From a virus: 46,851 nt of DNA. The notes under the pieces were generated by a model. The model had not been told where the DNA came from. It saw nothing but the letters and a program-made list of their open reading frames with translations, and did not search any database. Each line of letters starts with the position of its first letter. Position 1 is the first letter of the stretch. Shown here one piece after another: positions 3,725 through 43,447 of the stretch. The DNA lies in IMG/VR virus record IMGVR_UViG_3300042476_000542, positions 1 to 46,851 of that record, one strand, 5' to 3'. Position numbers and translations under genes: made by a program.

Positions 3725-3930
3725 GCACGCAAGACGTTACCGGCGCGGATTTGTTCGCTCCACTGCGTGGTTCTGGGAACCCCGAACTAGAGCCGGGCGT
3801 CGAGCGCACAAGTGATGCGGTGCGGAGCGGAGTGGGCGGAGATTCTAAACCAAAGCGCCTGCGCCTATCTGGAAAAATGATCGTCATAGACATAACGCCC
3901 GAAGAACCCGAAGAAGATGAGCAACCCTGA
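3721..3930 (+). CDS. Small acidic-tailed hypothetical protein (69 aa)
   Basis: Starts by ATGA overlap with the previous stop. About two thirds of the protein is the shared leader (LFAPLRGSGNPELEPG, then a Gly/Ser-rich stretch). The unique part is a short C-terminal segment, KMIVIDITPEEPEEDEQ, with a beta-strand-like run and an acidic tail. It overlaps the next gene by 14 nt. The function is unknown; it may be the remnant of a larger gene whose body was lost, leaving the leader. Confidence 0.55.
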   Translation: MSTQDVTGADLFAPLRGSGNPELEPGVERTSDAVRSGVGGDSKPKRLRLSGKMIVIDITPEEPEEDEQP

Positions 3931-25228: not shown

Positions 25229-25257
25229 TTGACCTCGCCGATCCGATGCAGGATGCG
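25229..25257 (+). promoter_or_regulatory. Possible promoter with TTGACC
   Basis: TTGACC lies 35 nt before ATG 25264; 17 nt downstream is GATGCG, a poor -10. The block CCGATGCAGGA is repeated before the portal gene at 41179-41189, in the same position relative to TTGACT. Confidence 0.4.
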
Positions 25258-25263
25258 CGAAAC

Positions 25264-27024
25264 ATGCCGCCTACATACCACTATCCAGGCCGACGCGATC
25301 CCGAGCAGGAAGCTGAAGACAAGAGGCGCACGCGCACCTCGAATCGCGACGCAATGGAGGCGGCCGCCCGAGCAGAGCGCGCCGCGTTCCTCGCCCATAT
25401 CCGGGGCACGCCGGGAGAGTTGAGCGTGCGGAACATGATGCCGTCGTGGGACACCTACAAAAACTCGCCCGAGATGAGCGGGAACACCGCGATGACCGAT
25501 TACATTTCTCGATACAACGCGAAGAACCCGCAGCGCGCCTTCAAGCCGGAAGTGTACACGCCGCAGGCAAGACAGGCCGCGCCCGCAGTGGCTCCCGCCG
25601 CCCCGCAGAGCCGCGTGATGCAGAATGCGCCCGCGGTCGGTGTACAGGCGGGGGCTCCGCTCGCGCCGCAATCCAAGACAGCCGCTGAGATGGAAAAGCG
25701 CACCAGCGGAGGAATGGAGGACGCGCTAAACGCGCAGGGCGCAGTGCAGGACATCGCGAAGAAGAACCTGACCCCGGATCAGATGAACGAACGCGCGAGC
25801 GCCGTCCAGCAACCCGGCCCGCTCGACACGCTTCGCGATGACACGGCGGCGCGGCAGCGTGTGCTGAACCGGGACTTTAGTGGCCCGAAGCCGGATGGTC
25901 GGCCCGACGTGGTGTACGGATGGGCGGGCTACGGAGGAACCGGGCGGCAACTCGTCTCAGTGCCGAGCGGCGAGCGCAGCGGGATGGCTCACTTGGATGC
26001 ACTCGGGGAGTTCCAACGGAGGCAGCAGCAGGACAGGGCCGACGCCTACGCGGGCACGTTGCAGCGCGGACAGAAGCCTTCAGCCGAAGGCTTCGCAGCA
26101 TGGAGCAAGGCGAACCCGGTGAATTACGACATGCAGTCCAGGGCAGCGCAGGCGTATGCCGACGCAGCTGTGGCACCGCGCCCGGTGGCTTTCTATGCGC
26201 CTCCGACGGCACTGAATCAGGCTCAAGCCACCGCAGCCGGAGCACCGTCAGATGCGTTCAACGTGATGAGGATGCCGGATGGCAGCTTGGGCTACGCCCG
26301 GCCCGAAGGCTCACCCACACTCACGGCCGGGCGATCCGCGTCCGTCACGATGCCAAACGGCAAAGTGGAGCGCAGGGCATTTTCAGACACGCCGCTCACG
26401 GACGCCGTGACCAACGCGAGCATCGGGCTTGGTGGTGCCTCCGGTCTCGCGATGACCGCTGGCGCGATGGGTGCCGGGGCGATGAATACCCGAGGGGGCA
26501 GCATGATCGCGCAAGCGGTAAAGCCGCCCGGGTCAGACACCGCGGACCCGAACAGCATCGCATCGCAGGCGAAAGCAGCCACATCATCGGTTGCGAACAC
26601 CCCGATGCCGATCACCAGCGCAGTGAAGCAGGCCGCGACAGGAGCCGCGACGCTGCCGACGGGATATGAAGCCGGAAAGTCGGCCTTTGGCGCACTGAAA
26701 ACTGGCGCTGGACTTATCGAAGGCGGAATCAAGAACACGAGCGACGCCATTGGCGGAACCGTCAAGGCCGCAACGAACTTCGCTCGCGGCTTTGCTGGCG
26801 CGTCACCGCTGGACAGCCTGAGCGGCCCGCAGATCATTAGCACGGAAACCCGACGACCGGGCCCGCTGTGGAATCCGCCGCCCGACACTACGCCGCCCGC
26901 GGTTTCTGATGACGAGATGGCAAAGTGGCGCGCGAGCGTTGGCGCGCCCGATCCGAAGGAAGGCAAGGGCAATCCTTACGACAAGCGCAAGCGCAACGGA
27001 GCATACGCCTCCCTGACTCCGTAA
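25264..27024 (+). CDS. Ala/Pro-rich hypothetical protein, probable virion or ejection protein (586 aa)
   Basis: Begins MPPTYHYPGRRDPEQEAEDK. ATG 25246 would give six more residues, but that ATG lies in a repeated upstream motif also present, out of frame, before the portal gene. The protein is rich in Ala, Pro, Gly and Met (about residues 100-150 and 400-500), with an apolar small-residue stretch, GLGGASGLAMTAGAMGAGAM, that could contact membrane. No enzymatic motif is seen. Its position between terminase and the giant protein, before the portal, and its composition suggest a minor virion or internal ejection protein, but this is inference. Confidence 0.7.
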   Translation: MPPTYHYPGRRDPEQEAEDKRRTRTSNRDAMEAAARAERAAFLAHIRGTPGELSVRNMMPSWDTYKNSPEMSGNTAMTDYISRYNAKNPQRAFKPEVYTPQARQAAPAVAPAAPQSRVMQNAPAVGVQAGAPLAPQSKTAAEMEKRTSGGMEDALNAQGAVQDIAKKNLTPDQMNERASAVQQPGPLDTLRDDTAARQRVLNRDFSGPKPDGRPDVVYGWAGYGGTGRQLVSVPSGERSGMAHLDALGEFQRRQQQDRADAYAGTLQRGQKPSAEGFAAWSKANPVNYDMQSRAAQAYADAAVAPRPVAFYAPPTALNQAQATAAGAPSDAFNVMRMPDGSLGYARPEGSPTLTAGRSASVTMPNGKVERRAFSDTPLTDAVTNASIGLGGASGLAMTAGAMGAGAMNTRGGSMIAQAVKPPGSDTADPNSIASQAKAATSSVANTPMPITSAVKQAATGAATLPTGYEAGKSAFGALKTGAGLIEGGIKNTSDAIGGTVKAATNFARGFAGASPLDSLSGPQIISTETRRPGPLWNPPPDTTPPAVSDDEMAKWRASVGAPDPKEGKGNPYDKRKRNGAYASLTP

Positions 27025-27036
27025 CTTTACACACAC

Positions 27037-30000
27037 ATGGGATTCGACGCATACGAACAGCTCGCAGTTGATCCGGGGGCGGTGGGCGATGTCGCCCGAT
27101 CCATTCTCGAGACACCCTCACAGCCCGGCGAAAGCTACGCCGACACGCAATACCGCAGCGCGCAACAGGCCGGAGCCACCGCGCGCATCCAAGCGATCAA
27201 GGGCAAGCAGTGGGCCGCCCGCGGCGTGCCAAGCTACCAGGACATGCAGGGCAACACGAAGCCCGTCGTGGACGACACCGGATCGCCGCTGAGCAAGCTC
27301 GATCCGAGGCACAACATCGCCTACGACTCCACCGGCTCGCCGAAGAAGATCGATTTCGACGTGGCTGGCGGATCGCCCGTGCTGAAAGATCCGTTTGAGG
27401 GACTGGAAACCACCACCGACCCGAAGACGGGGCACCAATACAAGATCGCGCCCGGTCTCCCGTGGCGATGGGTGAGCACGGACGCGCAGCTTGCGCAGAA
27501 GGCGGAATTTGCGCGGCAGGACGCATGGCTTTCCAGAGCCAGCGCATCCGAAGGTCGCAAGATCACGCTCCTCGAATACGGCGCAAAACCCCACCACGAC
27601 GCCATCAATGACGTGCGCTCGCAGTTGAAGCAACTCGGCGTTGCCGACACGGACCCCGTGACCGGCGATCCGCTCGACTACGACAGCCTCGTGGCCGGCA
27701 TCAACAGCCAGTTCGACGGGCAGAAAAATGACAAGAACTGGGCCGGAAACGCGAAGGAATACTTCGGGATGGGCGGCTACAAGCCCGAGGCGCTGAAGGC
27801 GCAGGCCGATCTTGAACTCCAGCGCGCCGCCGCACTCCGCGCCGCGGCCAAGGGCCACGCGCACGCACAGACGCTCGACGGAATCCGGCAGCAGGCGGAA
27901 GCCGTGCGCGCGCAGCGGATGATGATCGAGCAGACGAGGCTCGACCACGAAACCGAGATTCTGAAGGCGCAGGGAATTGACATTTCGCAGCCGCCGCCGG
28001 ACGCGCCGCAACCCGACGACTCACAGCCACAGGAAAACACCGCGCCCGACGGCAAGCCGCTGCCTCCCGCAGCACTCGCCTTGCGCGATGCACAGGCGGG
28101 AAAAAAGTCTTACAAGATTGACGAGAAATTTCAGCCGCAGTTTTCCGCCGAGCATCCGTTCGATGACCTGATGGCGATGAAAGCTGACGGATTGGTGGAC
28201 GCGGAGTTTGAGAAGAAATACGCCGGCAAATTCAAGGAGGCGCAGGATCATTACGCGCAAATCGTGAAGGACGCGGGCGGCGCATCGCAGGCGAAGGCAC
28301 TCATTCACGGACTCGGGCCGGCGGCGGCATTCATGGCGGGATTCGGCCCCGGCGCCGCGGCAGGTGCCACGGTCGGCGGCGGGATTGGTGCCGCGATTGG
28401 CGGGGCAGTGTCAGCTCCGACAGCGGGGATCGCGGCACCGGCCACGGTTCCGGCGGGCGCAGGCATCGGCGCAGGCATCGGAAGCGTGATCGGCGGACTC
28501 GCCGCCGGCACAATGGCGGCATGGGCGGCTCACAAGGCGATGAACGCGCTCGGCGAATACAGCGACGTGATGAAGTCACTGAACGCCGCGGCGGAAATGC
28601 ACCCGATTCTCGATGAAGTGGGCGGCCTGCTCGCATTCTCGACCGGCGCACCGAAAGCGATCGCGAACTTGAGCAAGGTGGGCAAAATCGCGAACGCCTC
28701 CCGCGCAGCCGCGATTGCCGCGGGCGTGCCGCTGGAGGAGGCTGGCGCGACGGGCGCGAAAGTGATCGCCGCTCAACTCGCCAAGGGTGCGGCGGGCGGG
28801 CTGGCGTTTGAAGGGCTGGCACGTCCGGGATTCGACGCCACCGTGAACCTTGTGGCCGACGGACTCGGCATCGAGCACGAGCAACTGCAATCCCCGACGG
28901 TCAAATCCCTCGCAGTGAATGCCGCGCTCGGTGTATTGCTCGCCGGGAAGCATATTCAATTCAAGGACTTCAACGCGCAGGAAGTCGCCAGCGTGGCGCT
29001 TCGAGGACAGTTGCGCAAAGCGATGGGAGTCGGATACGACGCGCCGCTCGACCCCGCGCAGGTGGCTCCCGTGGCTGAGAAGATGGGAATGGACAGCGCA
29101 AAGGTGGCGGAGATGGCGCAACCGATGAATCCGCAGGAAGCCGCGCTCTACGAGCAGATCGGCAAGCAAGTGGACGCCATGAAGAAAGCGGGCAGTTTCG
29201 ATAACCTCAAGTTGTCGAAGCTGGAAGCGCAGCAGGCTTTCATTCCAGGACTGACGCCGGGCAAAGGCACCGCCATCACCTCGGCGACCATCGGCGGCGA
29301 GCGGGCGGAACCCGGCGCACCGGAAGGACGCGCGGGACTCGGTGGCCCCGAAGCCCCAACCCCGACAGCGCCCGGCGGAGAGCGCAACATCACGCCGAAG
29401 CCGGAGCCGACGAAGCCCGCAGAACCCGGCACGACGAACATCGGGGAAAAACTTGGAAGCGAACTCGACAAGGTGGAGGTCACGCCGGAGCCGCCAGCGC
29501 CCACGGAACCCGCGCCTGCGGCGGTCGCGAAGGTATCACCGGAAATCCCGAGCGACCTAGATCAGCGCATCGCGCCGGTCATGGAAGATTTCACGCAGCG
29601 CCTCGCCGACGCCGACCGCAAGATCGCGATGGCGAAAGGGCAAGGGAACAGCGACGTGATCGCCGAAGCGAAGGCGGAGAAGGATGCGATTTTCGAGGAC
29701 ATGAAGCAGCGTCTCGGCACGGACATTCCCGAGCAGGTGCCGCAGATCGTCCGCGACCGGCTCGAAGGCGGCGCGCACGATTGGGAGGACGGGAAGGGGC
29801 TGCGGGAGAAAAAAGCCTACCGCTACGTCATTGACCAGCACGAAGGCGAGCAAGGAATGGGAGAGCCGTCGTTCTACGTGATCCGAAACTTGGATACCGG
29901 AAAGGAATCCGATCCTTACGAGAAACGAGAGGATGCAGAGGCTTTCTTGCGCGCTCATGGAAAAGGCGGAGTTGCGCCGGAAGGGTGGGTTGAACCAGAG

Positions 30001-33000
30001 AAACCATCGGTGCTTCCAGACGCGAAGCCTCCGCACGAAAAGATCATTGGCGAAAGCCAGTTTCATTCGGACAGGCGTGAACTTGGAAAGCCGACTACCT
30101 TTAAGACATGGGAGGCGTATGATAGTTGGCTGAAAACCAAGTCTGACAAGTTCCTGACGGATGCGCTAGGAACCCAGGCGAAAAATCTAATTGATCAGAT
30201 TAAGCAAGAGGCTTCCGGGATGCGTATTCCGAAGAGCGATCGGTCGAATCTGGAAACCAGAATCAACATCGGTGCGGTGTTCAAGGAGGCGTTGCGTCGT
30301 GGATTGCCAGTACCTGAATCCGAGGGGCTTTCGCAATACACGGGATCAAGACCGGCGCGAAAGGAAGCGCCTAGACAAAATGCATTACCAGAACCACCCG
30401 CACCCAATGAGCCAAAGCTACCCGCAAGCGAACGCAACGACCAAAGCAAACCTGAAGGCGCAAAGCCCGCAGGTGGAGCAAGCGAAGTGGCGAAAACCGA
30501 AGAAGGCAAACCCGGCGGCGAGCCCGCTGGACAGGCTGGCGGTAAGCCCGATGCGGAAACGGTAGAGCGGCGGAAGAAGATCGTCGGCACGGTGAACGTC
30601 GCCATGCGCGGCCACGCGAAGGAGTTGAGCAATCTCGGCCACATCGCCCGCGCGCACGAGGCGGAGCTTCCCGAATCGAACAAGAGCGGAATCGCGCTCC
30701 ACAATGGCAAGATCACTGTGGATGCCGCGAAGCTCGACGCGGCGACGGAGCAAATGACGCCAAAGGAGCGCGAGACCTACATCAACGCGGCAATCGGCGA
30801 GGAGGTTCTTCATAAAGGATTCAAGAACTTCGTCAATGAGTCACCCGCGAACCGCGCGCGCGCGCTGAAGCTCATCGAGGACGAGCCCGCCGCGGTGGAG
30901 TATCTGCAAAAACACTACAAGGGATTCGACGCCCTTGATCCGGAACACAAAGCGGCCGAGATCGCCCGCGTGATCATGCAAGGCAAGGCCGGAGTGACCA
31001 CCGAGAGCACTTGGAAATTTATCGAGGACTTGATCGCGCACATCAAGCGCATCCTCGGCAACATGACCGACGCGACGCGCAAGCTGATCGCGGACATCGA
31101 GGCGCGGATGAAGGGCGCGGAGACGGAGAAGGCAGCGAAGAAGCCGAAGGCCGAGAAACCCGCAACCCGTCCAGAGCGGCGCGATCTTAATCCTGACGAG
31201 CAGCGGAAGGTTGATGCCTTGCGCGCGGAGATCATAAAGCTGATCCAAGGGCGTCCGGTCGCTTACGACATGGCGATGAACGACAAAGGCGCATCGCTTG
31301 CGCGTCTCGAAAAACAGATCGCAGAGAAGCAGGGTGAGATCGATGGGATTTACGACAACGCGCGCAAGGCAGAAACGCCAGAGAAACCAAAGCCCAAGAG
31401 CAACAGCGTCGGAGTGAACGAGAGGGGGCAGCAGCTTTACGAGGACGAAAACGGCGTGCGCTACCGCATCGAGGACGGCGTGAAGATTTCCGCGCCCGTG
31501 TATATCGTGCCGACTCGCGCGGGCGTGAAAGCCCAGAAGCAGACACCGGAAGGCGAATGGCGCACCGCGGAAGAAGCCGCCGCCGAGAAACCGAAATCCC
31601 CGCTCCCGAACTTAGAGTCCCAAAAGCCCGCCGTTCTTGAACCGCACGCCACATTTGCAGAACGCCGCGCGCTGTCCGAGAAGTGGCTGAATACGCTCTC
31701 GCCGGATGCGCTGCTGAAGAAGATGGCGGAATACGGCATCCCGGCCAAGCGCGCACAAAAGGTGTGGGACAAGGCACGCAACCGGAAGCCCGACGACACC
31801 AAGGACTACGCCGAGGACTTCCAGCTCGAAGCCGGAGACGATCTTTCATTCTGGGAGAAGTCCGCGAAATCCCCGCTCCCGAACCGGGGCAGCGTGCTGC
31901 CGGAGAAGAAGGCGGATGCGCCGAAGCTCTCGCCGGGCGCGCAGGCCATCAAGGACAAGCTGGGTGATCTGTTTTCAGCGGCGGCGCCTGAGCCGCGTTA
32001 CGACGCTCCGATCCCGCGCGAGAAGCGCGATGCACTGAACTCTCTGACGGCTGACCTGATTGACAGCCACGGCGTTGACACTCCTGAGAAGCTGGCCACC
32101 GCGCTGACGGAACTCGGCCCGAAGGCGTTGGCGTTCTCGCAAAACATTTGGTTCAAGATGAAAAGCGAAGGGGCGCAAGGTTCGGCTGAACCGGACTGGA
32201 AATCCATCTACGCGCAGCTTGCGCCCGAACCGAAAACCGATATCGTAACACCAGATGAGCAACCAGCCACTACCCCCGAACTTGAAAGTCCTGCGGATGA
32301 TAATGGCGATGGTGGAACAACGCCTGGAGGCGCAGAATCCGGGGCTGGTGGAAAAATTACAGGAGGAGGGAAAGTGGAAGGCGCAACTGGCGGAACGGGC
32401 GAAGAACCTGTTTCAGACGGAGAGGGCGCTTCTTCAGGAGGGAAGATCAAAGCAGGAAGCGAGGGAGACAGCGATGAACGAGTGGGCGACATTTCCGCCG
32501 GACGCGGAAACCTCCGACTCGAACTCAGCGACGGCATCGGCGAAGGCGGACTGACCCGGAAGTTTCGCGACAACGTATCCGCGATCAAGACGCTTCGCGC
32601 GATCGAAGCGGAACGCCGGGACGCAACGCCAGAGGAACAGAAGACGCTCGCGCGGTATGTCGGATGGGGCGGGCTGGCTGAAAAGGCATTCCAGCCTGGC
32701 GGGGAGTTCTACGACGAGATGCAGGCACTCGGACTGAGCGACGACGAGATGGCGAGCGCGCGCCGCAGCACGACAAACGCGCACTACACCGCCCCGGAGA
32801 TGGTGCAGGGCATTTGGGGCGCGCTCGCTAAGATGGGATTCCAGAGCGGGCGCATCACGGAGCCTGCAATGGGCCCCGGGAGCTTCTACGGCTTCATGCC
32901 GGCGGAGATCGCGCGCTACTCCAGCTTGACCGGCATCGAGATGGACAATCTCACGTCTCGGATCGCCAGGGCGCTCTATCCTGAGTCAAAAGTATGGAAC

Positions 33001-36000
33001 CGCCCGTTCGAGAAGCACGTCATGGCGGACAACTCACAGGATCTCATCGTGAGCAATTTCCCGTTCAGTGACGCCGATCACCCGAACGATCCGCGCTACA
33101 ACAAGATCAACCCGAACCTGCACGATTATTTCTTCCTGAAATCGCTCGATAAGGTGCGACCCGGCGGATTCGTGGTCGCCATCACTTCGATCGGCACGAT
33201 GGATAAGATGGGATCGGCGGTGCGTGAGGTTCTTTCCGCGAAGGCGAATCTTGTCGCGGCGTTCCGACTGCCGAACACGATGTTCAAGGGGAACGCGGCC
33301 ACGGAAGTCACGACCGACCTGATCATCCTGCAAAAACGGGGCCCCGGCGTTCCAATGGAGCATAAGGACTGGCTAAACCCTGTCCACATCACCACGAGGA
33401 CCGGAGACGAGATCCGCATCAACCAGTATTTCCGAGACAACCCCTCAAACATGCTCGGGATCATGACGAGCGAAGGGAAGATGTACGGCAAGCCGACCAC
33501 TGGCGAGGACGGCAAGAAAGTCGGAAGCAAGGCGCTTCTCTCGGATGGCCGAACCGTCGCCCAACTCATCGAGCAGATCAAAAAAACGCTCCCTGAAAAC
33601 ATCTTTGTTCCCGAAGACAAGCAGGCGGCGACCATCCGCAATGCCGACGAACTAGAATTTGACCCGAACTCTGAAAAGGACGGATCGTTCGTTCTGCACA
33701 AGAACGAGGTGAGAGTGTTCCGCGGCGGAGAAGTCGAGCGCCCGAGGAAGGAGATTTCACCCACCACGAAGCGGCACACGCTGCTTTCCGGCTACATCGA
33801 GAGCGGTCACGTCGAGATTGACGACGACGGCACCGTGAAGCGCACCGGGGCGGCGTGGCCGGAATCGAAGAACCCGACCGACATCAAGCTGCGCGCCGAA
33901 ATCGAGGCCGGCGACATCACGGGCGAGCAATACAAGGAGTTCCGCGAGGTCGAAGAAAAATACGAAGACCCGCTCACCGGATCGGAGCGAACCACCACCG
34001 TTGAGAGGCAGTTCAGCACGTATGCCTTCGATGGGGATTTCACCAAGGCGGACTACGAGCGGATCAAGCAGTTGATCCCGTTGAGAAAGTCGCTGAAGGC
34101 GGTTCTACACGCCCAGGTCACGAATGCGGACGACGCCACGCTTGCGGCGATGCAGAAGGATCTGAACGTGTTCTACGATACCTACGTAAAGGAGAACGGA
34201 TTCCTGCACGAAGGGAAGACGCGCGCGGCGTTTCAGGATGATCCGTTCTACCCGGCGCTGATGGCGCTCGAGGATTACGACGCCACGAACAACGAGACGA
34301 CCAAGACGGACATTTTCAGCAAGCGGACGCGCCCGCGCAAGGAACCGCTCACCGGACTGACCGGGACCACTCGCGAGAACATGACAAAGATCATGGCGCA
34401 GACCGGCAAGGTGGACGTGGAGCTTCAGGCGAAGCTCTCCATGAGAGATCCCGATGAACTCGGGGACGAGATGGTGCGCGAGGGGCTTGTGTTCCGGGAT
34501 GCCGTCACCGGCAACTACGTCGAGCGCGAGGAGTATCTTTCCGGCAACATCTACGAGAAGCTGCACGCCGCAGAGGAAGCGGCGAAGTCGGACGAATCAT
34601 TCCGCAAGAACATCGAGGAACTGACGAAGGCGATCCCTGAACTACGCCCCGTTGAGCGGATCGGATTCTCCTTGGGTGCTGCGTGGATCGATCCGCACAC
34701 CTATTCCGAGTTCGTAAAGCACATCTACCGCGACCGGGGGCAGGCTTCGGAGTTCAAATACAAGAACGGCAGATGGGAGGTCAATGTGCCCGTGCGCGGA
34801 AACGCCGAGGGATTTGGAACCGAAGACGTTTCCACCGAGGAACTGATCTCGCAGTCCATGAATCTTTCGTCCCCGACGGTTCGCAAGCGATTCGATGACG
34901 GATCATCCGTCGTGCTCGAAAAGGAAACGAAGCTGGCGCGGATGGCTCAAAACCGACTGAAACAGGAGTTCAAGAACTTCATCCTCGACAACCCGGACAT
35001 CCACGAGCCGCTGGTGAAGAAATTCAACGAACTGGCGAACGCAATCCGCCCGCGCACGTACGATGCGCCCTACTCCACGCTGGAGGGGATGAATCCTGAA
35101 ATCTCGCTTCGGAAGCATCAGCTCGATTTCGTTTGGCGCGCGACCGTGGACGGTAAGGCGGTGGCGGCGCACGTAGTCGGCGGGGGGAAGACGTTCGCCT
35201 TCATCGGCGCGGGCATGGAGTGGAAGCGCATGGGGCTCGCGAGCAAGCCCATGTATATCGTGCCGAACCATCTTCTGCGCAGTGGGCAGACCGCATCGGA
35301 CTTCTACCGGATGTATCCGACCGCGAAGATTCTCACGGTGACGGAACGCGATTTCACGGCAAAGCGCCGACAGAGGCTCATGGCGCGGATTGCAACGGGG
35401 AATTGGGACGCCGTGCTGATCGGTCACAGCCAGATCGGATCGATCCCGGTGTCGCCGGATCTCATGGCCGCGCACATCCAGGGCGAGCTTGCGGAACTTG
35501 AGGAAGCATTGCGCGCCACGAAGGACGAGGTGGATCCAAACTCCAAGCAGGGGAAGAAGCGCATCAAGGCGCTAGAGGCGTCGCTTGCGGCAAAGCGGAG
35601 CAAGATGGAGAAGCTGCTCGATCCGCGGCGCGCGGACAAGGCACTTTACTTCGAGGAGCTTGGCGTGGATGCCATCATTATTGACGAGGCCCACGAGTTC
35701 AAGAATCTGAACTTCTGGACGAAGCTGAACAACATCGGCGGCCTTGGGAGCGCGAACACGGAGACGATCAAGACCGCGCAACTGAAGGTGAAGACCGACT
35801 ACATCCTTCGGCAGAATAATGGCCGCAACCTACTGTTCGCCACTGGCACGCCGATCACCAACACGATCGCCGAGGTCTATCTGCTTCAGAAGTACATCGC
35901 GCAGGATCTCCTAGACGCCGCCGGCATCAAATACTTTGACGAGTGGGCGCAGATGTTCGCGGACGTGCGCGAGGTTGCGGAAATCTCACCCGACGGGCAG

Positions 36001-39000
36001 ACGTTCCAGAACAAGGCGAAATTCGTCGAGTTCAAGAACATGCAGAGCCTTATCACGATGTTCCGACGGTATGTGGACATCCAGCGCCAGGAGCAACTGA
36101 ACCTTCCGGTCCCGCCCCTCTTTGGCGGCAAGATTCAGAACATCGTGTTCCAGCCGACTCAGGTTGTTCAGGACTACATGGCCGAGGTCGTCGAGCGCGC
36201 GGAGGCGCTGCGCGGCGGGAAAGTGGATCCGAGGGTGGACAACTGGCTCAAGCTGAACACGGACGCCCGAAAGATCAGCACGGACCCGCGGTTGATTGAC
36301 GCGAATCTGCCGGACGATCCTGAATACAAATCCTCGCGCATCGCGAAGAACACCTACGAAATCTGGAAGGCGAACGACTACCGCAAGGGCACGCAGATCG
36401 TATTTTGTGACCTGTATTCCAACAAGGTCGAGCGCGCCAGGAAGAATGCCTTCGGGGAGCCGGAGCGTTACAAGCGCGGACCGAAACGCGGGCAGCCCAT
36501 CGTCGAGAAAGTTGAACTGTTCAACGTGTTCACCGACATGAAGGACAAACTGATCCGCATGGGCGTGCCGGAGGACCAGATCGCCATCATCCACGATTAC
36601 GAGAAGGATGAGGACAAGGAGGAACTGAAAAGCGACTTCAACGCCGGCAAGATTCGCGTGCTTCTCGGCACAACAATGAAGCTCGGCACCGGCATGAATC
36701 TTCAGCGGCGGATGGTCGCGGTTCACAGTATGGACGCCAATTATCGCCCTGACCAGATGACGCAGCGCGAGGGCCGCGGCATCCGGCAGGGAAACCTTTT
36801 CCACGAGGCGACCATTGGCGGCAAGAAGGCGCCGGGACGGATGCCACAGCAACCGAGCTACGAACTCAGCAAGGACGGCGCGCTCACGACCGGGCCGGGC
36901 GGAAAATTCGGCCCTTTCAACATCATCATCACGCGCAACGCGGTAGAGCGCACGCTGGACAGCCGTATCTACCAGACGATCACGACGAAAACGAAGATCG
37001 TCGAGGATCTGCTGAACGGAGATTACAAGGGCGACACCGCTTCCGACATCAGCGACGCCGAACTGCGCGGGCAGGAAATGATCGCCGCGGCGAGCGGGAA
37101 CCCGCTGGTCATGGAGCGCTTCACGCTCGAAAACGAAGTGCGCGATCTGAAGATCAGTCAGGAGGACTTTGACAGGCGACAGGCGCGAATCCGAAAGGAA
37201 ATCCGCGAACTCACAAGCGGCATCGAGGAAAATGATCGCGCCATCCCGCATGTGGACGCGCTTCGGGATGCCCACCGCGCTGCCGACGCCGACATTGATC
37301 GCCGGGTCAAGGAGGGCGAGGAGGCCAAGCAAAAGGAACTCTCGGACAAGCATGTATTCGACCCGGAGACGCCTTTCGTCGTGACTCGGGACGTGAAGAA
37401 AAAGGGAAAGCAAACCGAGCTTGAGCTTGCGAAGGAAAAGATCGGAGAGGGCGAGAAGGAGGAAGTCCCGATGACGATTCTGGACATGCTCAAGGAGCCG
37501 CTGAAGAAGACGAAGAACAACCCGGACGGCGAACTCGAATTGCGCGCCTTCGGATTGAATGGGCGACTCACGCGGAAATCCGAGCGCATCGAGGCGGCGC
37601 AAAGTCTCACGGGAGAATCACGCCTCCGCCACACGTTCAGTTGGAATTACACCGGAGCCAGCGCGTCGAAGTTTGAATTTGCGACGCAATACAACGACGA
37701 GGCGCCAGAGCTTTACAAATACTCAGGAGATAGCCCGCTGCCGAAGTTCAAGGAGCAGCGCGATTACCTCATCGAGCGCGCCGCGCATCAGTGGCTTTAC
37801 GACAATGCGAGGCAGACCGATGTTGAAGTGGGCGGAACTCGCTTCACGACATTGCAGGAGGCAGTCAAGGCACTTGAGCCAAAGCTGAACGCGCTGAAGA
37901 AAGGCGAATCGCTTTCGTTCAAAGAGAACGGCGTGGATGTGAGCGTGAAGGCGGAGGAAAAGAAATCGCTCACCGAGGACGAGAAGAAGAACGCCGACAT
38001 GCTCGGTGTTGTTCCGATGCTCTATCACGCCAATTTCCCGGCGCTGAAGGACGTTGGTGCGCAGGCTTACAATCCGCTCGCTTCAAGTGATGCCAGCCAA
38101 CTGATTTGGCACATCGCCAATTCCCTGAAGTGGATCCCGTCGTCGGAGCAGATTCAAAAGAACGTCGCCGATCAGAAGAATCAGTTGAAGATGAAGCAGG
38201 ACGCAGTTCAGACGGCGTTCCCGGAGGCGGATCAACTGGACGAGAAACAGGCGCGACTCGCGGAGGTGGTGCGTCTCACATCCGGCGATCCGCACGCGCG
38301 AACCGCGGATCCGAATGACGATGACGGGCAGATTGCTGACGACGGAAGCGGCGAAACCTTCTCCGCCGCCGCGCCGGAAAGAAAAGCCACCGACGCCGTG
38401 GCCGCAGGCGCGAAGGGGCGCGAGGAGACGAAGGAAGACCGCAAGGCGGCGCAGGCCGCCACGTTCGCGACGAAGCCCCCGGGTGTCGCGTCGCAGATTT
38501 GGGATGCCATCAAGACCGCGGGCAGCGCGACGAAAAGGTGGTGGGGCGAGATGCCAGCCTACGACCCGATCGACAAGGCGATCGGGCAATGGCTCGGGGC
38601 AGGGGACAGCGCACCGCTCAAGGGCACCGACATCGTGATCCCTGGCAGACAGAAGGCCGCGCACGAATCCCGCAAGCTCGTGGAGACGATCGTGAAGCAG
38701 TTCCCGAACGTGCTCACGCGCCAGGCGATCAGCCGCTACATGGAGGCCGACGGCGACAGGGCCACGCTGCAAAAGTGGGCGGACAAGTCGAAGCCGGAAA
38801 TGAAAACGGTGTATGAGCGCGCGCTGAACCTGAACGCCGCGGAGAAGGCGATGGCGGACACGGCCAAGACGTTCTTCAAGGAGAAGGGCGAGGAGGCGCA
38901 AAAGCTCGGGCTGCTCGGCAACCTGCTGGAGAACTACGTCACGCACTTTGTCGAGAAGGCGCCGGCCAACCAGCGCAGCGGACTCATGGCGCGCATCCTC

Positions 39001-40914
39001 GGCGATCTCGCCAGCGACACGCCCGCGAGCAAGCTGAAGACGAAATTTGACCACGCCATCAAGCGCGTGTTCTCGAGCATGTTCGATCTGGAACAGGAAG
39101 GGCACTCGCTGCGCGGCGGCGGCGACATCGCGGGCACGCTCGGAGCCTACGCGCAGGCGGCGAACAACACGGTCGCGGATCGGGTGTTCGTGAAGTCGCT
39201 CACCGACATCATGGCGCGCGACGGCCGCCCGATGGCAGTGCCGAGCGGGGCAATCACCAGGACGGACGGATCGGCGGACTCCCCGCTGCTCATCAAGCCG
39301 CACACGCACCCGGCGGACACTTCCGACTACCGCCCGATCTCGCACCCGGCGCTTCGCAAGTGGAAGTGGCTCGGCAAAGAAGGCGAGAAGGACGTTCTAG
39401 TGGAGGGCGAACTGCTCATCCACCCCGACCTCTACAAGCGGCTGAAAAACACGCTCGGCACCTCGGCGCTGAACAACGTGCCGATCATCAAGGCTGTCGG
39501 CGAGTTTCAGGCCATCGTGAAGCAGTTCATGCTTTCGTTCTCGCCGTTCCATTTCGTGCAGGAGGGCACGCACGCCATCGGCCACAAGGTCAACCCCTTC
39601 AAAGTGGCGGAGATCGACATGGACGATCCGGCGACACGCGAATTGGTGAACGCCGGGCTCATGCTCGCGAACTGGAATGCCAAGGCGGAATTTGGCGAGG
39701 GATTGACGGCGAACGGCATGGAAAAGCTGCTCTCTCACATCGGACTCGGGAAGCTCGGGAAGCTGAACGACACGATGAGTTCATTCCTTTTCGAGAAGTA
39801 CATCCCCGGTCTGAAAATCGCGATGGCGAAGGAGGCGATGGTGCGCAACATGGAACGGTTCAAGAAGGATCTGGCCTCCGGCAAGATGACGCGCGAACAG
39901 GTCGCACAGAAGACCGCGCAGCAGGCCAACGACGCATTCGGCGAACAGAACAACCTCTACGCGGGCAACAACCCGACGCGCCTGCACTTCGAGCGCCTGC
40001 TTTTCCTCGCCCCGGACTTCCTGAAGTCGCGCGCCAAGTTCTTCGCCGATGCGTTCCGCAAGCACGGCGGCGAGCAACGCAACGCGCTCATCCTGCTCGC
40101 CGTCGTCCTCGCAGTGACCGCGAAGCTCCTTGAGCGGATGCTGACCGGCAAGAACGATTGGGAGAAGCCTTTCAGCGTGGTGACAGAGGGCCGCGAATAC
40201 GAGCTGCGCAGCGTCCCCGGCGACGTGATCGCGCTGCTCAAGAACAGGCGGCAGTTTGTCATGGGGCGTATTTCCCCGCTCATCAGCCGCACCGCGCTCG
40301 AAGCGGCCACCGGGCGCGACTGGCGCGGCCAGCAGCGTTCCGGCGCGCAGCAGGTGAAGGATCTCGCCATGACGCCGCTCCCGCTTGCCCTGCGCGGCGT
40401 GATCGACCCGGAGGCACCGGACATCTCCGCGGCGGAGTCGCTGATCAGTTCCTCGGGACTGCGCACAATCCGACACAGCGAAATCACCAAGGCCCGCAAG
40501 CTCGGTCGCGAGTGGCAGAAGGCCAACGGAAGCGAGCATGTGGACGAAGTGCATCCGCCGTCGAAATACGTCGGTATCAAGAACGCGCTCGAAGACGGCG
40601 ACAACGCGCGGGCGATGAAGGAATACGGGAAGCTGCTCGCCACGATGCCGAAGGATAAGGCGGACACCGGATTCCGCTCGTCGCTCATGAAGCCGTTCAG
40701 CGGGAGCCTCGCAAACGAGAAGGCGTTCGTCGCCTCACTCGATGCCGACGACCGCGCCACGTATCAGGCGGCGATGACGAAGCGCGGCCGGATGCTGGCA
40801 GCCTTCACGCGCATGTCCGCGACGACGCGCGCGCCGGCCAATGCGCCACGGGCCGCGGCGAAGGCCGCACCGATCGGGAGCCGCAATCTCACGGTGAAGG
40901 AGTTCTTCCGGTAG
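27037..40914 (+). CDS. Giant polyvalent protein (4625 aa): membrane region, DarB-like methylase, SNF2-like helicase
   Basis: Resembles the injected polyvalent proteins of phages (P1 DarB is a partial analogue). Residues 1-420 are hydrophilic; about 425-500 is a glycine-zipper membrane-active region (GAAAGATVGGGIGAAIGGAV). A Pro/Glu linker follows, and near 1255 there is a protease-like EEVLHKGF. The methylase spans about 1840-2100, with EPAMGPGSF (AdoMet) and VSNFPFSD, a DarB-like form of NPPF. After a helical region, the SNF2-like helicase spans about 2690-3280: VGGGKTF, DEAHEFKN, FATGTPITN and QREGRGIRQGN. Coiled coil and a second globular region follow; residues 3800-4625 resemble C-terminal polyvalent domains, with a membrane segment near 4350 (ALILLAVVLAVTAKLL). 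It lies between terminase and portal. Likely a virion protein delivered with DNA to block restriction (inference). Confidence 0.85.
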   Translation: MGFDAYEQLAVDPGAVGDVARSILETPSQPGESYADTQYRSAQQAGATARIQAIKGKQWAARGVPSYQDMQGNTKPVVDDTGSPLSKLDPRHNIAYDSTGSPKKIDFDVAGGSPVLKDPFEGLETTTDPKTGHQYKIAPGLPWRWVSTDAQLAQKAEFARQDAWLSRASASEGRKITLLEYGAKPHHDAINDVRSQLKQLGVADTDPVTGDPLDYDSLVAGINSQFDGQKNDKNWAGNAKEYFGMGGYKPEALKAQADLELQRAAALRAAAKGHAHAQTLDGIRQQAEAVRAQRMMIEQTRLDHETEILKAQGIDISQPPPDAPQPDDSQPQENTAPDGKPLPPAALALRDAQAGKKSYKIDEKFQPQFSAEHPFDDLMAMKADGLVDAEFEKKYAGKFKEAQDHYAQIVKDAGGASQAKALIHGLGPAAAFMAGFGPGAAAGATVGGGIGAAIGGAVSAPTAGIAAPATVPAGAGIGAGIGSVIGGLAAGTMAAWAAHKAMNALGEYSDVMKSLNAAAEMHPILDEVGGLLAFSTGAPKAIANLSKVGKIANASRAAAIAAGVPLEEAGATGAKVIAAQLAKGAAGGLAFEGLARPGFDATVNLVADGLGIEHEQLQSPTVKSLAVNAALGVLLAGKHIQFKDFNAQEVASVALRGQLRKAMGVGYDAPLDPAQVAPVAEKMGMDSAKVAEMAQPMNPQEAALYEQIGKQVDAMKKAGSFDNLKLSKLEAQQAFIPGLTPGKGTAITSATIGGERAEPGAPEGRAGLGGPEAPTPTAPGGERNITPKPEPTKPAEPGTTNIGEKLGSELDKVEVTPEPPAPTEPAPAAVAKVSPEIPSDLDQRIAPVMEDFTQRLADADRKIAMAKGQGNSDVIAEAKAEKDAIFEDMKQRLGTDIPEQVPQIVRDRLEGGAHDWEDGKGLREKKAYRYVIDQHEGEQGMGEPSFYVIRNLDTGKESDPYEKREDAEAFLRAHGKGGVAPEGWVEPEKPSVLPDAKPPHEKIIGESQFHSDRRELGKPTTFKTWEAYDSWLKTKSDKFLTDALGTQAKNLIDQIKQEASGMRIPKSDRSNLETRINIGAVFKEALRRGLPVPESEGLSQYTGSRPARKEAPRQNALPEPPAPNEPKLPASERNDQSKPEGAKPAGGASEVAKTEEGKPGGEPAGQAGGKPDAETVERRKKIVGTVNVAMRGHAKELSNLGHIARAHEAELPESNKSGIALHNGKITVDAAKLDAATEQMTPKERETYINAAIGEEVLHKGFKNFVNESPANRARALKLIEDEPAAVEYLQKHYKGFDALDPEHKAAEIARVIMQGKAGVTTESTWKFIEDLIAHIKRILGNMTDATRKLIADIEARMKGAETEKAAKKPKAEKPATRPERRDLNPDEQRKVDALRAEIIKLIQGRPVAYDMAMNDKGASLARLEKQIAEKQGEIDGIYDNARKAETPEKPKPKSNSVGVNERGQQLYEDENGVRYRIEDGVKISAPVYIVPTRAGVKAQKQTPEGEWRTAEEAAAEKPKSPLPNLESQKPAVLEPHATFAERRALSEKWLNTLSPDALLKKMAEYGIPAKRAQKVWDKARNRKPDDTKDYAEDFQLEAGDDLSFWEKSAKSPLPNRGSVLPEKKADAPKLSPGAQAIKDKLGDLFSAAAPEPRYDAPIPREKRDALNSLTADLIDSHGVDTPEKLATALTELGPKALAFSQNIWFKMKSEGAQGSAEPDWKSIYAQLAPEPKTDIVTPDEQPATTPELESPADDNGDGGTTPGGAESGAGGKITGGGKVEGATGGTGEEPVSDGEGASSGGKIKAGSEGDSDERVGDISAGRGNLRLELSDGIGEGGLTRKFRDNVSAIKTLRAIEAERRDATPEEQKTLARYVGWGGLAEKAFQPGGEFYDEMQALGLSDDEMASARRSTTNAHYTAPEMVQGIWGALAKMGFQSGRITEPAMGPGSFYGFMPAEIARYSSLTGIEMDNLTSRIARALYPESKVWNRPFEKHVMADNSQDLIVSNFPFSDADHPNDPRYNKINPNLHDYFFLKSLDKVRPGGFVVAITSIGTMDKMGSAVREVLSAKANLVAAFRLPNTMFKGNAATEVTTDLIILQKRGPGVPMEHKDWLNPVHITTRTGDEIRINQYFRDNPSNMLGIMTSEGKMYGKPTTGEDGKKVGSKALLSDGRTVAQLIEQIKKTLPENIFVPEDKQAATIRNADELEFDPNSEKDGSFVLHKNEVRVFRGGEVERPRKEISPTTKRHTLLSGYIESGHVEIDDDGTVKRTGAAWPESKNPTDIKLRAEIEAGDITGEQYKEFREVEEKYEDPLTGSERTTTVERQFSTYAFDGDFTKADYERIKQLIPLRKSLKAVLHAQVTNADDATLAAMQKDLNVFYDTYVKENGFLHEGKTRAAFQDDPFYPALMALEDYDATNNETTKTDIFSKRTRPRKEPLTGLTGTTRENMTKIMAQTGKVDVELQAKLSMRDPDELGDEMVREGLVFRDAVTGNYVEREEYLSGNIYEKLHAAEEAAKSDESFRKNIEELTKAIPELRPVERIGFSLGAAWIDPHTYSEFVKHIYRDRGQASEFKYKNGRWEVNVPVRGNAEGFGTEDVSTEELISQSMNLSSPTVRKRFDDGSSVVLEKETKLARMAQNRLKQEFKNFILDNPDIHEPLVKKFNELANAIRPRTYDAPYSTLEGMNPEISLRKHQLDFVWRATVDGKAVAAHVVGGGKTFAFIGAGMEWKRMGLASKPMYIVPNHLLRSGQTASDFYRMYPTAKILTVTERDFTAKRRQRLMARIATGNWDAVLIGHSQIGSIPVSPDLMAAHIQGELAELEEALRATKDEVDPNSKQGKKRIKALEASLAAKRSKMEKLLDPRRADKALYFEELGVDAIIIDEAHEFKNLNFWTKLNNIGGLGSANTETIKTAQLKVKTDYILRQNNGRNLLFATGTPITNTIAEVYLLQKYIAQDLLDAAGIKYFDEWAQMFADVREVAEISPDGQTFQNKAKFVEFKNMQSLITMFRRYVDIQRQEQLNLPVPPLFGGKIQNIVFQPTQVVQDYMAEVVERAEALRGGKVDPRVDNWLKLNTDARKISTDPRLIDANLPDDPEYKSSRIAKNTYEIWKANDYRKGTQIVFCDLYSNKVERARKNAFGEPERYKRGPKRGQPIVEKVELFNVFTDMKDKLIRMGVPEDQIAIIHDYEKDEDKEELKSDFNAGKIRVLLGTTMKLGTGMNLQRRMVAVHSMDANYRPDQMTQREGRGIRQGNLFHEATIGGKKAPGRMPQQPSYELSKDGALTTGPGGKFGPFNIIITRNAVERTLDSRIYQTITTKTKIVEDLLNGDYKGDTASDISDAELRGQEMIAAASGNPLVMERFTLENEVRDLKISQEDFDRRQARIRKEIRELTSGIEENDRAIPHVDALRDAHRAADADIDRRVKEGEEAKQKELSDKHVFDPETPFVVTRDVKKKGKQTELELAKEKIGEGEKEEVPMTILDMLKEPLKKTKNNPDGELELRAFGLNGRLTRKSERIEAAQSLTGESRLRHTFSWNYTGASASKFEFATQYNDEAPELYKYSGDSPLPKFKEQRDYLIERAAHQWLYDNARQTDVEVGGTRFTTLQEAVKALEPKLNALKKGESLSFKENGVDVSVKAEEKKSLTEDEKKNADMLGVVPMLYHANFPALKDVGAQAYNPLASSDASQLIWHIANSLKWIPSSEQIQKNVADQKNQLKMKQDAVQTAFPEADQLDEKQARLAEVVRLTSGDPHARTADPNDDDGQIADDGSGETFSAAAPERKATDAVAAGAKGREETKEDRKAAQAATFATKPPGVASQIWDAIKTAGSATKRWWGEMPAYDPIDKAIGQWLGAGDSAPLKGTDIVIPGRQKAAHESRKLVETIVKQFPNVLTRQAISRYMEADGDRATLQKWADKSKPEMKTVYERALNLNAAEKAMADTAKTFFKEKGEEAQKLGLLGNLLENYVTHFVEKAPANQRSGLMARILGDLASDTPASKLKTKFDHAIKRVFSSMFDLEQEGHSLRGGGDIAGTLGAYAQAANNTVADRVFVKSLTDIMARDGRPMAVPSGAITRTDGSADSPLLIKPHTHPADTSDYRPISHPALRKWKWLGKEGEKDVLVEGELLIHPDLYKRLKNTLGTSALNNVPIIKAVGEFQAIVKQFMLSFSPFHFVQEGTHAIGHKVNPFKVAEIDMDDPATRELVNAGLMLANWNAKAEFGEGLTANGMEKLLSHIGLGKLGKLNDTMSSFLFEKYIPGLKIAMAKEAMVRNMERFKKDLASGKMTREQVAQKTAQQANDAFGEQNNLYAGNNPTRLHFERLLFLAPDFLKSRAKFFADAFRKHGGEQRNALILLAVVLAVTAKLLERMLTGKNDWEKPFSVVTEGREYELRSVPGDVIALLKNRRQFVMGRISPLISRTALEAATGRDWRGQQRSGAQQVKDLAMTPLPLALRGVIDPEAPDISAAESLISSSGLRTIRHSEITKARKLGREWQKANGSEHVDEVHPPSKYVGIKNALEDGDNARAMKEYGKLLATMPKDKADTGFRSSLMKPFSGSLANEKAFVASLDADDRATYQAAMTKRGRMLAAFTRMSATTRAPANAPRAAAKAAPIGSRNLTVKEFFR
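30407..30565 (+). CDS. Possible overlapping gene inside the giant ORF (52 aa)
   Basis: Read in another forward frame of the giant gene over a linker of the main frame (Pro/Lys/Glu/Gly-rich). Encodes MSQSYPQANATTKANLKAQS then a basic end (NPAASPLDRLAVSPMRKR). An earlier ATG at 30380 is possible. The sequence is protein-like but short, and no ribosome-binding site is visible. Confidence 0.3.
   Translation: MSQSYPQANATTKANLKAQSPQVEQAKWRKPKKANPAASPLDRLAVSPMRKR
32255..32554 (+). CDS. Overlapping gene inside the giant ORF (99 aa, helical)
   Basis: An ATG-started frame, shifted relative to the giant gene, encodes a well-formed protein: MSNQPLPPNLKVLRMIMAMV, helices through RLEAQNPGLVEKLQEEGKWK and LAERAKNLFQTERALLQEG, then RSKQEARETAMNEWATFPPD. 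Its codons end mainly in G or C. In contrast the giant frame here is low-complexity Gly/Glu/Ser/Thr (GGTTPGGAESGAGGKITGGG). This pattern is expected where one frame is the ancestral coding frame and the other is overprinted. No ribosome-binding site is obvious. The function is unknown; it may be an independently translated gene or a domain formerly in another frame before fusion. Confidence 0.55.
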   Translation: MSNQPLPPNLKVLRMIMAMVEQRLEAQNPGLVEKLQEEGKWKAQLAERAKNLFQTERALLQEGRSKQEARETAMNEWATFPPDAETSDSNSATASAKAD

Positions 40915-41079: not shown

Positions 41080-41156
41080 CGCAGGATGGCGCAGTCCGGT
41101 AGCGCGCTTGGCTCATACCCAAGAGGACGCGGGTTCAAATCCCGCTCCTGCAACCA
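41080..41156 (+). tRNA. tRNA-Met (anticodon CAT), initiator-like
   Basis: A full 77-nt cloverleaf with encoded CCA. Acceptor CGCAGGA/TCCTGCA has a C1-A72 mismatch, the hallmark of bacterial initiator tRNA. The D stem is GCGC/GCGC, the anticodon stem CTTGG/CCAAG with loop CTCATAC, and the T stem GCGGG/CCCGC with loop TTCAAAT. Initiator features are incomplete: the anticodon stem has T29-A41 instead of the third G-C pair, and the D stem lacks the A11-U24 pair. Confidence 0.92.
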
Positions 41157-41164
41157 ATTTCGGC

Positions 41165-41193
41165 TTGACTCCGCGAAACCGATGCAGGACGCG
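41165..41193 (+). promoter_or_regulatory. Possible promoter with TTGACT
   Basis: TTGACT begins 9 nt after the tRNA, with CCGATGCAGGA following as at 25244; 17 nt downstream is GACGCG. The portal ATG is 39 nt after the first T. It may drive the head genes independently of the giant gene. Confidence 0.4.
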
Positions 41194-41203
41194 GCGGACA
41201 CTC

Positions 41204-43447
41204 ATGGAACTTCCCAAGCCACAGCCCGCGTTTGACGGGAACGATTTCACCGTTCTACCCCCGGCCCCGGCGCCGACGCGGTTCAAGACGAACCTGCAAC
41301 TCACGCCCGACCAACGCGAGGAACTGAAACACCGATGCCTGACGCGGATCACGGAGCTTCAGCGCGAGATGGGACTGAGCGGCGAGGGCGCGGTGGACGG
41401 CGGATCGTGGATGGACCGGAGGAAGCGGTATCAGGATCTCTTTGACAACGACAACTCCTGGCGCGCGGCGATGTATGGCGGCGTCTTCGACAAGAGCAAC
41501 CTGACGCTCGGCACGGCACAGCGGTTCGTGCGCGAGATGCACAGCAAGGCCGCGGACGATCTTCTCGGCACGCGCCCATTTTTCGCCGCGGTGAAATATC
41601 AGAACGTGGGCGACGACCAGACGGCGCGCGCGGTGGAGGAACTGGTGCAGCAGCGCGTGGACCAGAGCGACGTGCAGACCGAACTTCGCTCGGCGCTACG
41701 CAGCGCGCTCATCCGCAACGAGTGCGTGGTGAAGATCCGATGGATCAAGCGCAGCACGCCCTACGTCAGCCCCGCGGTGGTGCTCGTGGACGCGAACGGC
41801 GAGCCGATCAAGACCCCGAACGGCCTCATGGTCTATGAGAACGACGACTTTCTGCCCGACCCGAACGTGGAGGGGCTGGCGCGGCTGGAGAAGGATCCGC
41901 TGTTCGCGATGCGGCAGGGGGAGTTTCAATACAAGCAGTTCGACCGGCTTTTGCAGGAGTTGATCCAATTTGAGGGCGTCGAGTGTCGCGAAGTGGACTA
42001 CCGATCATACCTCTGCCCGCTCCGGTGCCCGGACATTCACGAGGCGGACGCGGTGTTCCAGCTTTACGACGACACGCCGCAGCACATCAAGGAGACCTAC
42101 GGCGAATACGAGGGCTTCGACGAGTATTGGGCCGGCAGCGTGACCGACGAGGGCAGCGGCGAGATGCGCGCGAAGGAGACGCACGGCGAACAGCGCGATA
42201 CCGTCGTGAGCCGCCTGAACATCTTCCGGCGCATGGCCGAGTGCTACGTGCGCTTCGATGCCGACGGCGACGGATTCGAGGAGGAGATTTTCTGCGTGCT
42301 GGACCGGAGCTGTGAAGACCTCGTGTATTACGAATACCTCGCGAACGTGATGCACAAGCGCCCGTTTGAAGTGATCCCCGGCGTCGCCCGCGTGCCGAAC
42401 CGCTGGTATGGCGAGGGCGTGATCCAGGCGGTGATCGATCAGGACACCTACATTGACGCGCAGTTCAACCGCTTCAACATCAAGGACAGCAAGGAGAACA
42501 GCGTCACGTTCCGCGACCCGATGGCGGTGCGCGAGTGGAAGAACGGCGCGCAGGTGGAATTTGGCGGCGACAAGATTTACGACGTGGAGCCGGGCTACGA
42601 CAAGGATCACCGCCCGCCGATGTGGAACGTGAACCTCACGGAGAAATCCGAGATCGGGCTGGAACTGCTCACGATGGCGCAGCAGCAGCTCAACCTGATG
42701 TTCGGCGTGATCGGCGCGAAGGACGCCAGCGCGAGCGACCTGAATAGCAGCCGGACGGCGACGGGCATCCTGAACATCGAGCGCACGAGCAACCTGCTCA
42801 TCAAGAACAGCGAGATCCAGCACCAGAAGGCGATCATCGGGATCATGGGCCAGGTGGTGACAATCGTGCTGGAGAACATCCGCGACACCGAGCTTCTGCT
42901 TTCCAAGGACGGCAAGATGCTGCTCACGATCAACCGCGAGGAGGCGCGCACCATCGAGCGGGAAATCCGACTCCTGCTCACGCGCTCGCGTTCGTCCGAG
43001 ATGCTTTCCACAAACCAGCAGGCGCTCGCAGTGGCGGAGAAATACCACATGACGCGCGCGCAGATGCCGGAAGTGGCGCGCACGCTGCGTCCGCTATTCC
43101 TCTCGCAACTCAAGGCGCTCGAAGTGGCCGATCCCGATGAGCTTTGCCCGAACATCTCCGACGAGGAGATCAAGGTGTGGCAGGAAAAGAGCCAGCAGTC
43201 CGCACAGGCGCAACTCCGCCGCGAGACGCGCGAAGCCATCGCCTACAAGGACTGCCCGCCGAGCGTGCAAGCGCAGTGGGAAACGGAGATGGGATTCCAG
43301 CCCGCGAGCCCCGAGGAGCGAGCGCAGAAGGCCAAGCAGGACTTCACGCTCAAAAATCCCGAGTTTGTCATGCCGGCGGTTCCGCAGCCCGGCGCGCACG
43401 GCGCGGAAGAAGCCGGCGAAACCGAAACCGGAGCACCCGCGCAGTGA
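41204..43447 (+). CDS. Portal protein, P22-type
   Basis: Forms the dodecameric portal at the capsid vertex. At 747 aa it is close to P22 gp1 (about 725). Family-like parts are the N-terminal RRKRYQDLFDNDNSWRAAMY, the TLGTAQRFVREMHSKAADDL segment, ECVVKIRWIKRSTPYV, RFDADGDGFEEEIFCVLD, NRWYGEGVIQAVIDQDTYID and the LMFGVIGAKDASASDLNSSR loop, followed by a long helix and a Glu/Ala-rich tail. The ATG at 41204 is chosen because the longer frame starts inside the tRNA. Identification is from pattern and context; no P22-type scaffolding or coat protein is yet visible downstream. Confidence 0.85.
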   Translation: MELPKPQPAFDGNDFTVLPPAPAPTRFKTNLQLTPDQREELKHRCLTRITELQREMGLSGEGAVDGGSWMDRRKRYQDLFDNDNSWRAAMYGGVFDKSNLTLGTAQRFVREMHSKAADDLLGTRPFFAAVKYQNVGDDQTARAVEELVQQRVDQSDVQTELRSALRSALIRNECVVKIRWIKRSTPYVSPAVVLVDANGEPIKTPNGLMVYENDDFLPDPNVEGLARLEKDPLFAMRQGEFQYKQFDRLLQELIQFEGVECREVDYRSYLCPLRCPDIHEADAVFQLYDDTPQHIKETYGEYEGFDEYWAGSVTDEGSGEMRAKETHGEQRDTVVSRLNIFRRMAECYVRFDADGDGFEEEIFCVLDRSCEDLVYYEYLANVMHKRPFEVIPGVARVPNRWYGEGVIQAVIDQDTYIDAQFNRFNIKDSKENSVTFRDPMAVREWKNGAQVEFGGDKIYDVEPGYDKDHRPPMWNVNLTEKSEIGLELLTMAQQQLNLMFGVIGAKDASASDLNSSRTATGILNIERTSNLLIKNSEIQHQKAIIGIMGQVVTIVLENIRDTELLLSKDGKMLLTINREEARTIEREIRLLLTRSRSSEMLSTNQQALAVAEKYHMTRAQMPEVARTLRPLFLSQLKALEVADPDELCPNISDEEIKVWQEKSQQSAQAQLRRETREAIAYKDCPPSVQAQWETEMGFQPASPEERAQKAKQDFTLKNPEFVMPAVPQPGAHGAEEAGETETGAPAQ

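Follow-up and report, generated by a model that had tools for sequence, protein, structure and literature searches.

A giant DarB-like phage protein with an enzyme cassette exchanged between constant ends

DarB-type proteins and the giant gene

DarB of phage P1 (2,255-aa class) is a head protein active against EcoK and EcoB. The first 30 residues are enough to send a reporter to the capsid, and darB is the ORF immediately before the portal gene (PMC9024508). P1 DarB carries a methylase-helicase dyad, and P1 also requires DarA, DdrB and other proteins. For DarB, movement of the methylase-helicase along the incoming DNA, with methylation on the way, has been proposed; the same paper describes polyvalent proteins, in which several unrelated enzymes are joined in one polypeptide encoded near virion genes (PMC5512222). 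Giants of the Bcep22-type podoviruses (BcepIL02 gp70, 4,667 aa; JC1 gp69, 4,515 aa; CSP3 orf43) have a soluble lytic transglycosylase domain, and their gene lies before the lysis genes. Mass spectrometry of virions purified on CsCl identified JC1 gp69 by 51 unique peptides (PMC9144972).

The window, i.e. the whole stretch of DNA that was analysed, covers an entire virus record (46,851 bp), which is classed as linear. Its open frame at 27037-40914 (plus strand, like all parts of the gene given below) comprises 4,625 codons, or ~29.6% of the window. This agreed with an earlier note on this DNA, which had described a 4,625-aa frame filling nearly 30% of the window between terminase and portal genes. 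A 61-kb record carries a giant protein 100% identical to that of the window, indicating that the window is a fragment and that the real share of the gene is ~22% of the genome. The gene lies among virion and packaging genes, as is expected of a polyvalent protein. An intein-bearing terminase (21868-25218) is found upstream, followed by a 592-aa gene of unassigned function (25246-27024), and a tRNA-Met gene (41080-41156) and a SU10-type portal gene (41108-43447; Pfam E = 4e-13) are found downstream. Since position 41108, annotated as the TTG start of the portal, falls within the tRNA-Met gene, the true portal start is probably further downstream. Neither the 592-aa protein nor the portal had a match among 50,697 phage records, and no relation was found when the N-terminus of the giant was considered as a paralogue of the 592-aa neighbour.

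The earlier note had also ranked the protein among the largest of its kind, which did not hold. Among 61 distinct DarB-type giants fetched, many exceeded 4,500 aa, the longest reaching 5,771 aa, and Iyer et al. (PMC5512222) cite a protein of 12,242 aa. In Bacteroides phage BKO1-TP3, a 5,553-aa protein is encoded directly before the portal gene.

The DarB-like centre and the zincin-like domain

Profile searches, which had been suggested in the earlier note, matched the giant to PHROG 10089 'DarB-like antirestriction' (E = 0, 1,291 bits, profile of 4,647 positions), and N6_Mtase (E = 4.5e-6) and Helicase_C (E = 4.6e-6) were detected with Pfam. An LPD36-like (GWGG) and N6-adenine methylase region (residues 1826-2240, 32512..33756) precedes a SNF2-like helicase core (residues 2700-3260, 35134..36816), which is the order of DarB-like proteins (LPD36 with its GXGG/A/S motif, gamma-class N6 methylase, SWI2/SNF2 ATPase), and at least two disparate enzymatic domains (N6_Mtase and SNF2 helicase) are thus present in one polypeptide. 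The polyvalent, DarB-like architecture proposed from the single sequence was thus supported. The motifs on which that proposal was built were all present, with the glycine zipper GGGIGAAIGG at residue 447, EEVLHK at 1255, VSNFPFSD at 2005, the helicase motifs HVVGGGKT, DEAH and QREGRGIRQG at 2712, 2883 and 3243, and a hydrophobic helix at 4350-4370; GWGG is at 1875.

A tblastn search with residues 1781-3440 matched 115 phage records, including BcepIL02, JC1, PEp14, LASTA, POI1126 and PBC5, all below 60% identity and the best at ~35%. The giants of the Bcep22 type resemble that of the window in size, in the LPD36-methylase-SNF2 centre (28-35% identity), in late-gene context and in taking up ~22% of the genome. 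In contrast to their transglycosylase domain, no Pfam match was obtained in residues 1-1780 of the window protein; its N-terminus has no recognisable relation to theirs, its C-terminus is related to those of other giants only by profile comparison, and its gene lies between terminase and portal rather than before lysis genes. With P1 DarB it shares the methylase-helicase dyad and the position directly before the portal gene, but it is twice as long. Unlike P1 DarB, it also has a zincin-like domain and large parts at both termini, and in its relatives the enzymes are replaceable.

The earlier note had held that degenerate motifs in all relatives would speak against its reading; instead, the motifs were found to be intact. 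In 86 relatives of the methylase, motif I (EPxxGxGxF; EPAMGPG in the window), an acidic GxExD and N-x-P-F (motif IV) were conserved, with N kept in 82/86 and P and F in 83/86, the remainder being mostly gaps. The position after N was P in 58/86 and V in 23/86, and is F in the window; its NFPF departs from the NPPF/NVPF of most relatives and from the catalytic NPP(Y/F) of DarB-like methylases, a point against the reading favoured below. In the helicase, GxGKT (Walker A), DE.H and QR.GR were invariant in the 14 phages compared. Between the window and relative L032, 49 silent and 13 replacement differences were counted in residues 1790-3440, giving a dN/dS of 0.076. Together with the motif conservation, this ratio indicates that the methylase-helicase block is under purifying selection and maintained, and it is very probably active.

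The DarB-like architecture, the intact motifs and the neighbourhood of virion genes make delivery together with the DNA the likeliest role of the giant, as the earlier note had proposed and as the homologues JC1 gp69 and P1 DarB suggest. By analogy with these proteins, the giant would be packed in the head and enter the host together with the phage genome. There, the methylase-helicase block would travel along the incoming DNA, methylate it and guard the genome against restriction.

The zincin-like domain (residues 1165-1410, 30529..31266) carries EEVLH (30799-30816). Three versions of the motif (EEVLH, EEVKH, EEVIH) were found in the phage group, with EExxH in place of HExxH/HEXXXH. In an AlphaFold model (pLDDT 80), a helix, three strands, the motif helix and a helix with a conserved glutamate follow one another; the same helix-strand order is given for polyvalent metallopeptidases in PMC5512222. 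Foldseek with this model returned no match at E ≤ 0.001 and none in the PDB; its best viral matches had a probability of 0.96-1.0 but E ≥ 0.01, and one of them was an ART-PolyVal protein. A PDB sequence search with the domain returned only designed helical repeats and a tRNA synthetase, the Pfam search of the giant gave no peptidase match, and no further relatives of the domain were found outside the same phage group. The protease-like character read by the earlier note from EEVLHK is doubtful: the first metal-ligand histidine of HExxH is replaced, and the modelled fold order came without a significant fold match. We refer to the domain as zincin-like and as a putative protease at most.

Constant ends and the exchanged enzyme cassette

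The close relatives are all metagenome assemblies. Five IMG/VR contigs matched the C-terminal part of the giant at 97-100% identity. The relatives retain residues ~1-320 and 3781-4625 and exchange ~2,900-2,960 residues in between. This was clearest in IMG/VR contig 3300044625_000517 (L025, also L005), the giant frame of which has 4,584 codons without a stop. Its residues corresponding to 1-828 and 3770-4625 of the window protein were 94% and 97% identical, respectively, and the middle was different. DNA identity ends at 29487 and is regained from 38360 onwards, with the reading frame kept at both junctions. The genes flanking the giant were 92-100% identical, showing that near-identical phages carry different enzymes within one gene.

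The cassette of the window (cassette A, residues ~814-3774, 29476..38358) was replaced as a whole in L025. Where the window has the methylase and SNF2 block, L025 has cassette B with DarA_C (E = 2e-10), ART-PolyVal (E = 1e-12) and a Strawberry-notch-type helicase (AAA_34, Helicase_C_4); DarA_C and ART-PolyVal are both Pfam families defined on polyvalent proteins. Cassette B is complete in one viral contig and in one MAG contig with a 10-N gap inside the gene. The zincin-like domain was kept in every cassette; between A and B it was 31% identical, with EEVxH and the downstream glutamate conserved.

Other combinations were also found. In L032 and L033, cassette A (~99%) follows an N-terminal module that shares only 52-60% identity with that of the window; dS was 2.4 in this module but 0.04 in the cassette. 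In L035, a third N-terminal module precedes the start of cassette B. L116/L124 (BJFP01000021.1) is a contig binned as Verrucomicrobiota, with a name that points to Lake Biwa. It combines yet another N-terminal module, the fourth, with the N-side seam of the window and a cassette-A-like start; a third version of the zincin-like domain comes next, and cassette-B modules follow it. A second ART module (L116 residues 2960-3253; ART-PolyVal, E = 2e-17) lies between its helicase and the C-terminal part, flanked by two linkers. Silent divergence thus differed by module, from a dS of 0.019 to 2.4, which implied that the modules have separate histories. The swaps were in frame and were seen in separate assemblies. 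The cassette character of the enzymes between constant ends had been invisible in the single sequence.

Residues 1-320 (27037..27996) were common to all records reaching that far, with ~92% DNA identity in L025, L032, L033, L034 and L035 and 81-83% amino acid identity in L124. Since the N-terminus of P1 DarB targets the capsid, these residues may by analogy direct packaging or targeting. The following module (residues 321-795, 27997..29421; glycine-zipper-like at ~440-490) is exchangeable: version 1 is also present in L025 (dS 0.019), the 52-60% version in L032, L033 and L034, and unrelated ones in L035 and L124, so that there are at least four versions in all. The C-terminal part (residues 3781-4625, 38377..40911) was common to all records holding it (95-99% amino acid identity in L025, L116 and L032). 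It contains a predicted membrane helix, ALILLAVVLAVTAKLLERMLT (residues 4350-4370, 40084..40146), with a hydropathy of 1.88. By hhalign, the C-terminal part was distantly related to the C-termini of other DarB giants (L038, L043, L062, L065, L055, L040) over 478 columns that include the hydrophobic helix (probability 96.9, E = 1.4e-10). Neither the N- nor the C-terminal part had a tblastn match in the 50,697 phage records.

The earlier note had placed membrane parts at both ends, from which a channel through the cell envelope could be formed. The C-terminal helix, conserved in distant relatives, agreed with this, and all four versions of the N-terminal module have hydrophobic or glycine-rich stretches. 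However, the N-terminal hydropathy peaks reached only 1.3-1.5, so that only the C-terminal segment resembles a genuine membrane helix, that part is exchangeable and unrelated in some relatives, and an AlphaFold model of the C-terminal part, made with four near-identical sequences, had a pLDDT of 37. A channel formed by part of the giant therefore seems unlikely. We favour the reading that the constant parts most likely serve packaging, ejection and membrane contact; the relatives would bring an ADP-ribosyltransferase and a DarA-related set in place of the methylase-helicase, and the swaps could be an answer to host defences.

Taken together, the giant is probably a virion-delivered DarB-like anti-defence protein with constant ends, the enzyme cassette of which is exchanged at seams. 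The kind of protein is already known; the exchange of a cassette between constant ends and the reordering at linker sites would be the new part. The available part of PMC5512222 describes long-term accretion, and whole-cassette exchange between near-identical phages at repeated linkers is absent from it. No description of recent whole-cassette exchange between constant ends with module reordering at repeated linkers was found in the literature searched, a limited library.

In boundary-sequence exchange and in polymorphic toxins, a constant delivery part is combined with variable cargo by recombination at short conserved sequences. Here, in contrast, the cargo lies between two constant ends of one gene, and the module order also changes. 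Natural swaps of this kind mark candidate delivery parts as opposed to cargo parts in giant ejected phage proteins, and the seams give precise places at which test fusions could be joined in a laboratory phage such as P1. Near-identical phages differing by one cassette are pairs whose range of defence evasion could differ accordingly.

Seams, linkers and alternative readings

The N-side seam, EPGTTNIGEKLGSELDKV (residues 796-813, 29422..29475), was common to the window, L025, L032 and L124, and was kept although the sequence differs on one or the other side. On the C-side, the identity of the window with L025 and L116 begins to the nucleotide at FSAAAP (residues 3775-3780, 38359..38376). The same linker occurs internally at residues 1646-1651 (31972..31989). 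The window has two A(E/A)AP linkers (1648 and 3777), which is not above chance by itself (0.72 expected), and only 3777 is seen as a breakpoint. In L025, six A(E/A)AP were found between modules (residues 1341, 1473, 2215, 2557, 3044 and 3733), whereas shuffling predicts 0.83; among 1,000 shuffled versions, none had as many as six.

The module order in L025 was SLFAEAP–ART–LEAEAP–X–ALFAEAP–helicase–SAAAP–C-end, and that in L116 was SLFAEAP–X–ALFAEAP–ART–LEAATP–helicase–SAAAP–second ART–HAAAP–C-end. At the DNA level, all order breaks between the two were located at a seam GC[CG]G[AC][AC]GC[GC]CC, within ~11 nt. In L025 coordinates, the breaks relative to L116 were 11129/12144, 13615/11110, 12154/13605 and 15679/new/15671, and the seams were at 11118, 12144, 13605 and 15672. 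Some differences, insertions within modules, lie away from the linkers, so that the seams are not used for every change. The idea that A(E/A)AP marks DarB-type giants in general was rejected; outside the phage group A[AE]AP (z 0.6) and [LIVMT][FY]SR (z 1.3) were unenriched. FSR had a z of 3.6 among DarB-type giants, seemingly mainly from one aligned position.

On the favoured reading, the cassette of ~2,900 residues is replaced whole and reordered by module, probably through recombination at short in-frame seams coding for A(E/A)AP. It is possible, and we suggest it tentatively, that this amounts to an intragenic cassette system, in which the 11-nt linker-coding seams would be preferred recombination points, and possibly processing sites, at which a pool of anti-defence modules is plugged in, swapped and reordered. 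A preference of recombination and the survival of linker junctions under selection both fit the sequence.

Alternatively, the protein might be an ordinary Bcep22/P1 DarB-type giant, in which the cassette differences reflect normal slow turnover of domains without special seams. The centre, the size and the gene context match many described phages, and variable architectures and domain accretion have already been reported by Iyer et al. (PMC5512222). But the swap is recent, the phages being 96-98% identical in flanking DNA, and every order break was within ~11 nt of a seam, for which we estimated ~2% for a random position; we therefore doubt that slow turnover is sufficient.

The linkers might also be processing sites of a polyprotein, cut by its own zincin-like domain or by a head protease, with selection for intact sites placing the joins. 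That the linkers separate domains, that L025 has six of them instead of 0.8 and that the zincin-like domain is kept in every cassette would agree with this, as would the autoproteolysis by such domains proposed by Iyer et al. (PMC5512222). On the other hand, EExxH differs from the zincin motif and lacked a Pfam peptidase match, linkers rich in A and P are commonly just flexible, and the JC1 peptides gave no sign of processing, which made a polyprotein improbable.

That L025 and L116 are chimeric assemblies without any cassette exchange is very improbable: the contigs are metagenomic and the N-side seam of 50-60 nt that is shared could mislead an assembler, but both junctions are in frame in a frame of 4,584 codons without a stop, cassette B is found again in two other records (L035, L116) with other partners, and seams of 11 nt fall below the usual word length of assemblers.

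Several observations were made on other genes of the phage. The terminase contains a LAGLIDADG intein (23329-24396; 356 aa, C488 to N843). An exact empty site (NDRD/CFLQSG) was found in the terminase of L025, and by DNA alignment the insert is absent from L034, indicating that the intein is polymorphic in the phage group. In L025, ~1.8 kb of additional DNA relative to the window (993-2796 of L025) separates the terminase from the 592-aa gene. Just upstream of the terminase, a small putative zinc metallopeptidase (PF04298, E = 3e-12) is encoded at 20958-21476, which could be a processing enzyme. Two stand-alone DNA methyltransferase genes were found at 132-1199 and 1637-2440 (phrog_67, phrog_359), which together with that of the giant gives at least three methylase domains in the phage. 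A PAPS-reductase-like gene is located at 4600-5577 (phrog_424, E = 2e-50); BcepIL02 likewise has a PAPS-reductase-like gene, three genes ahead of its DarB gene.
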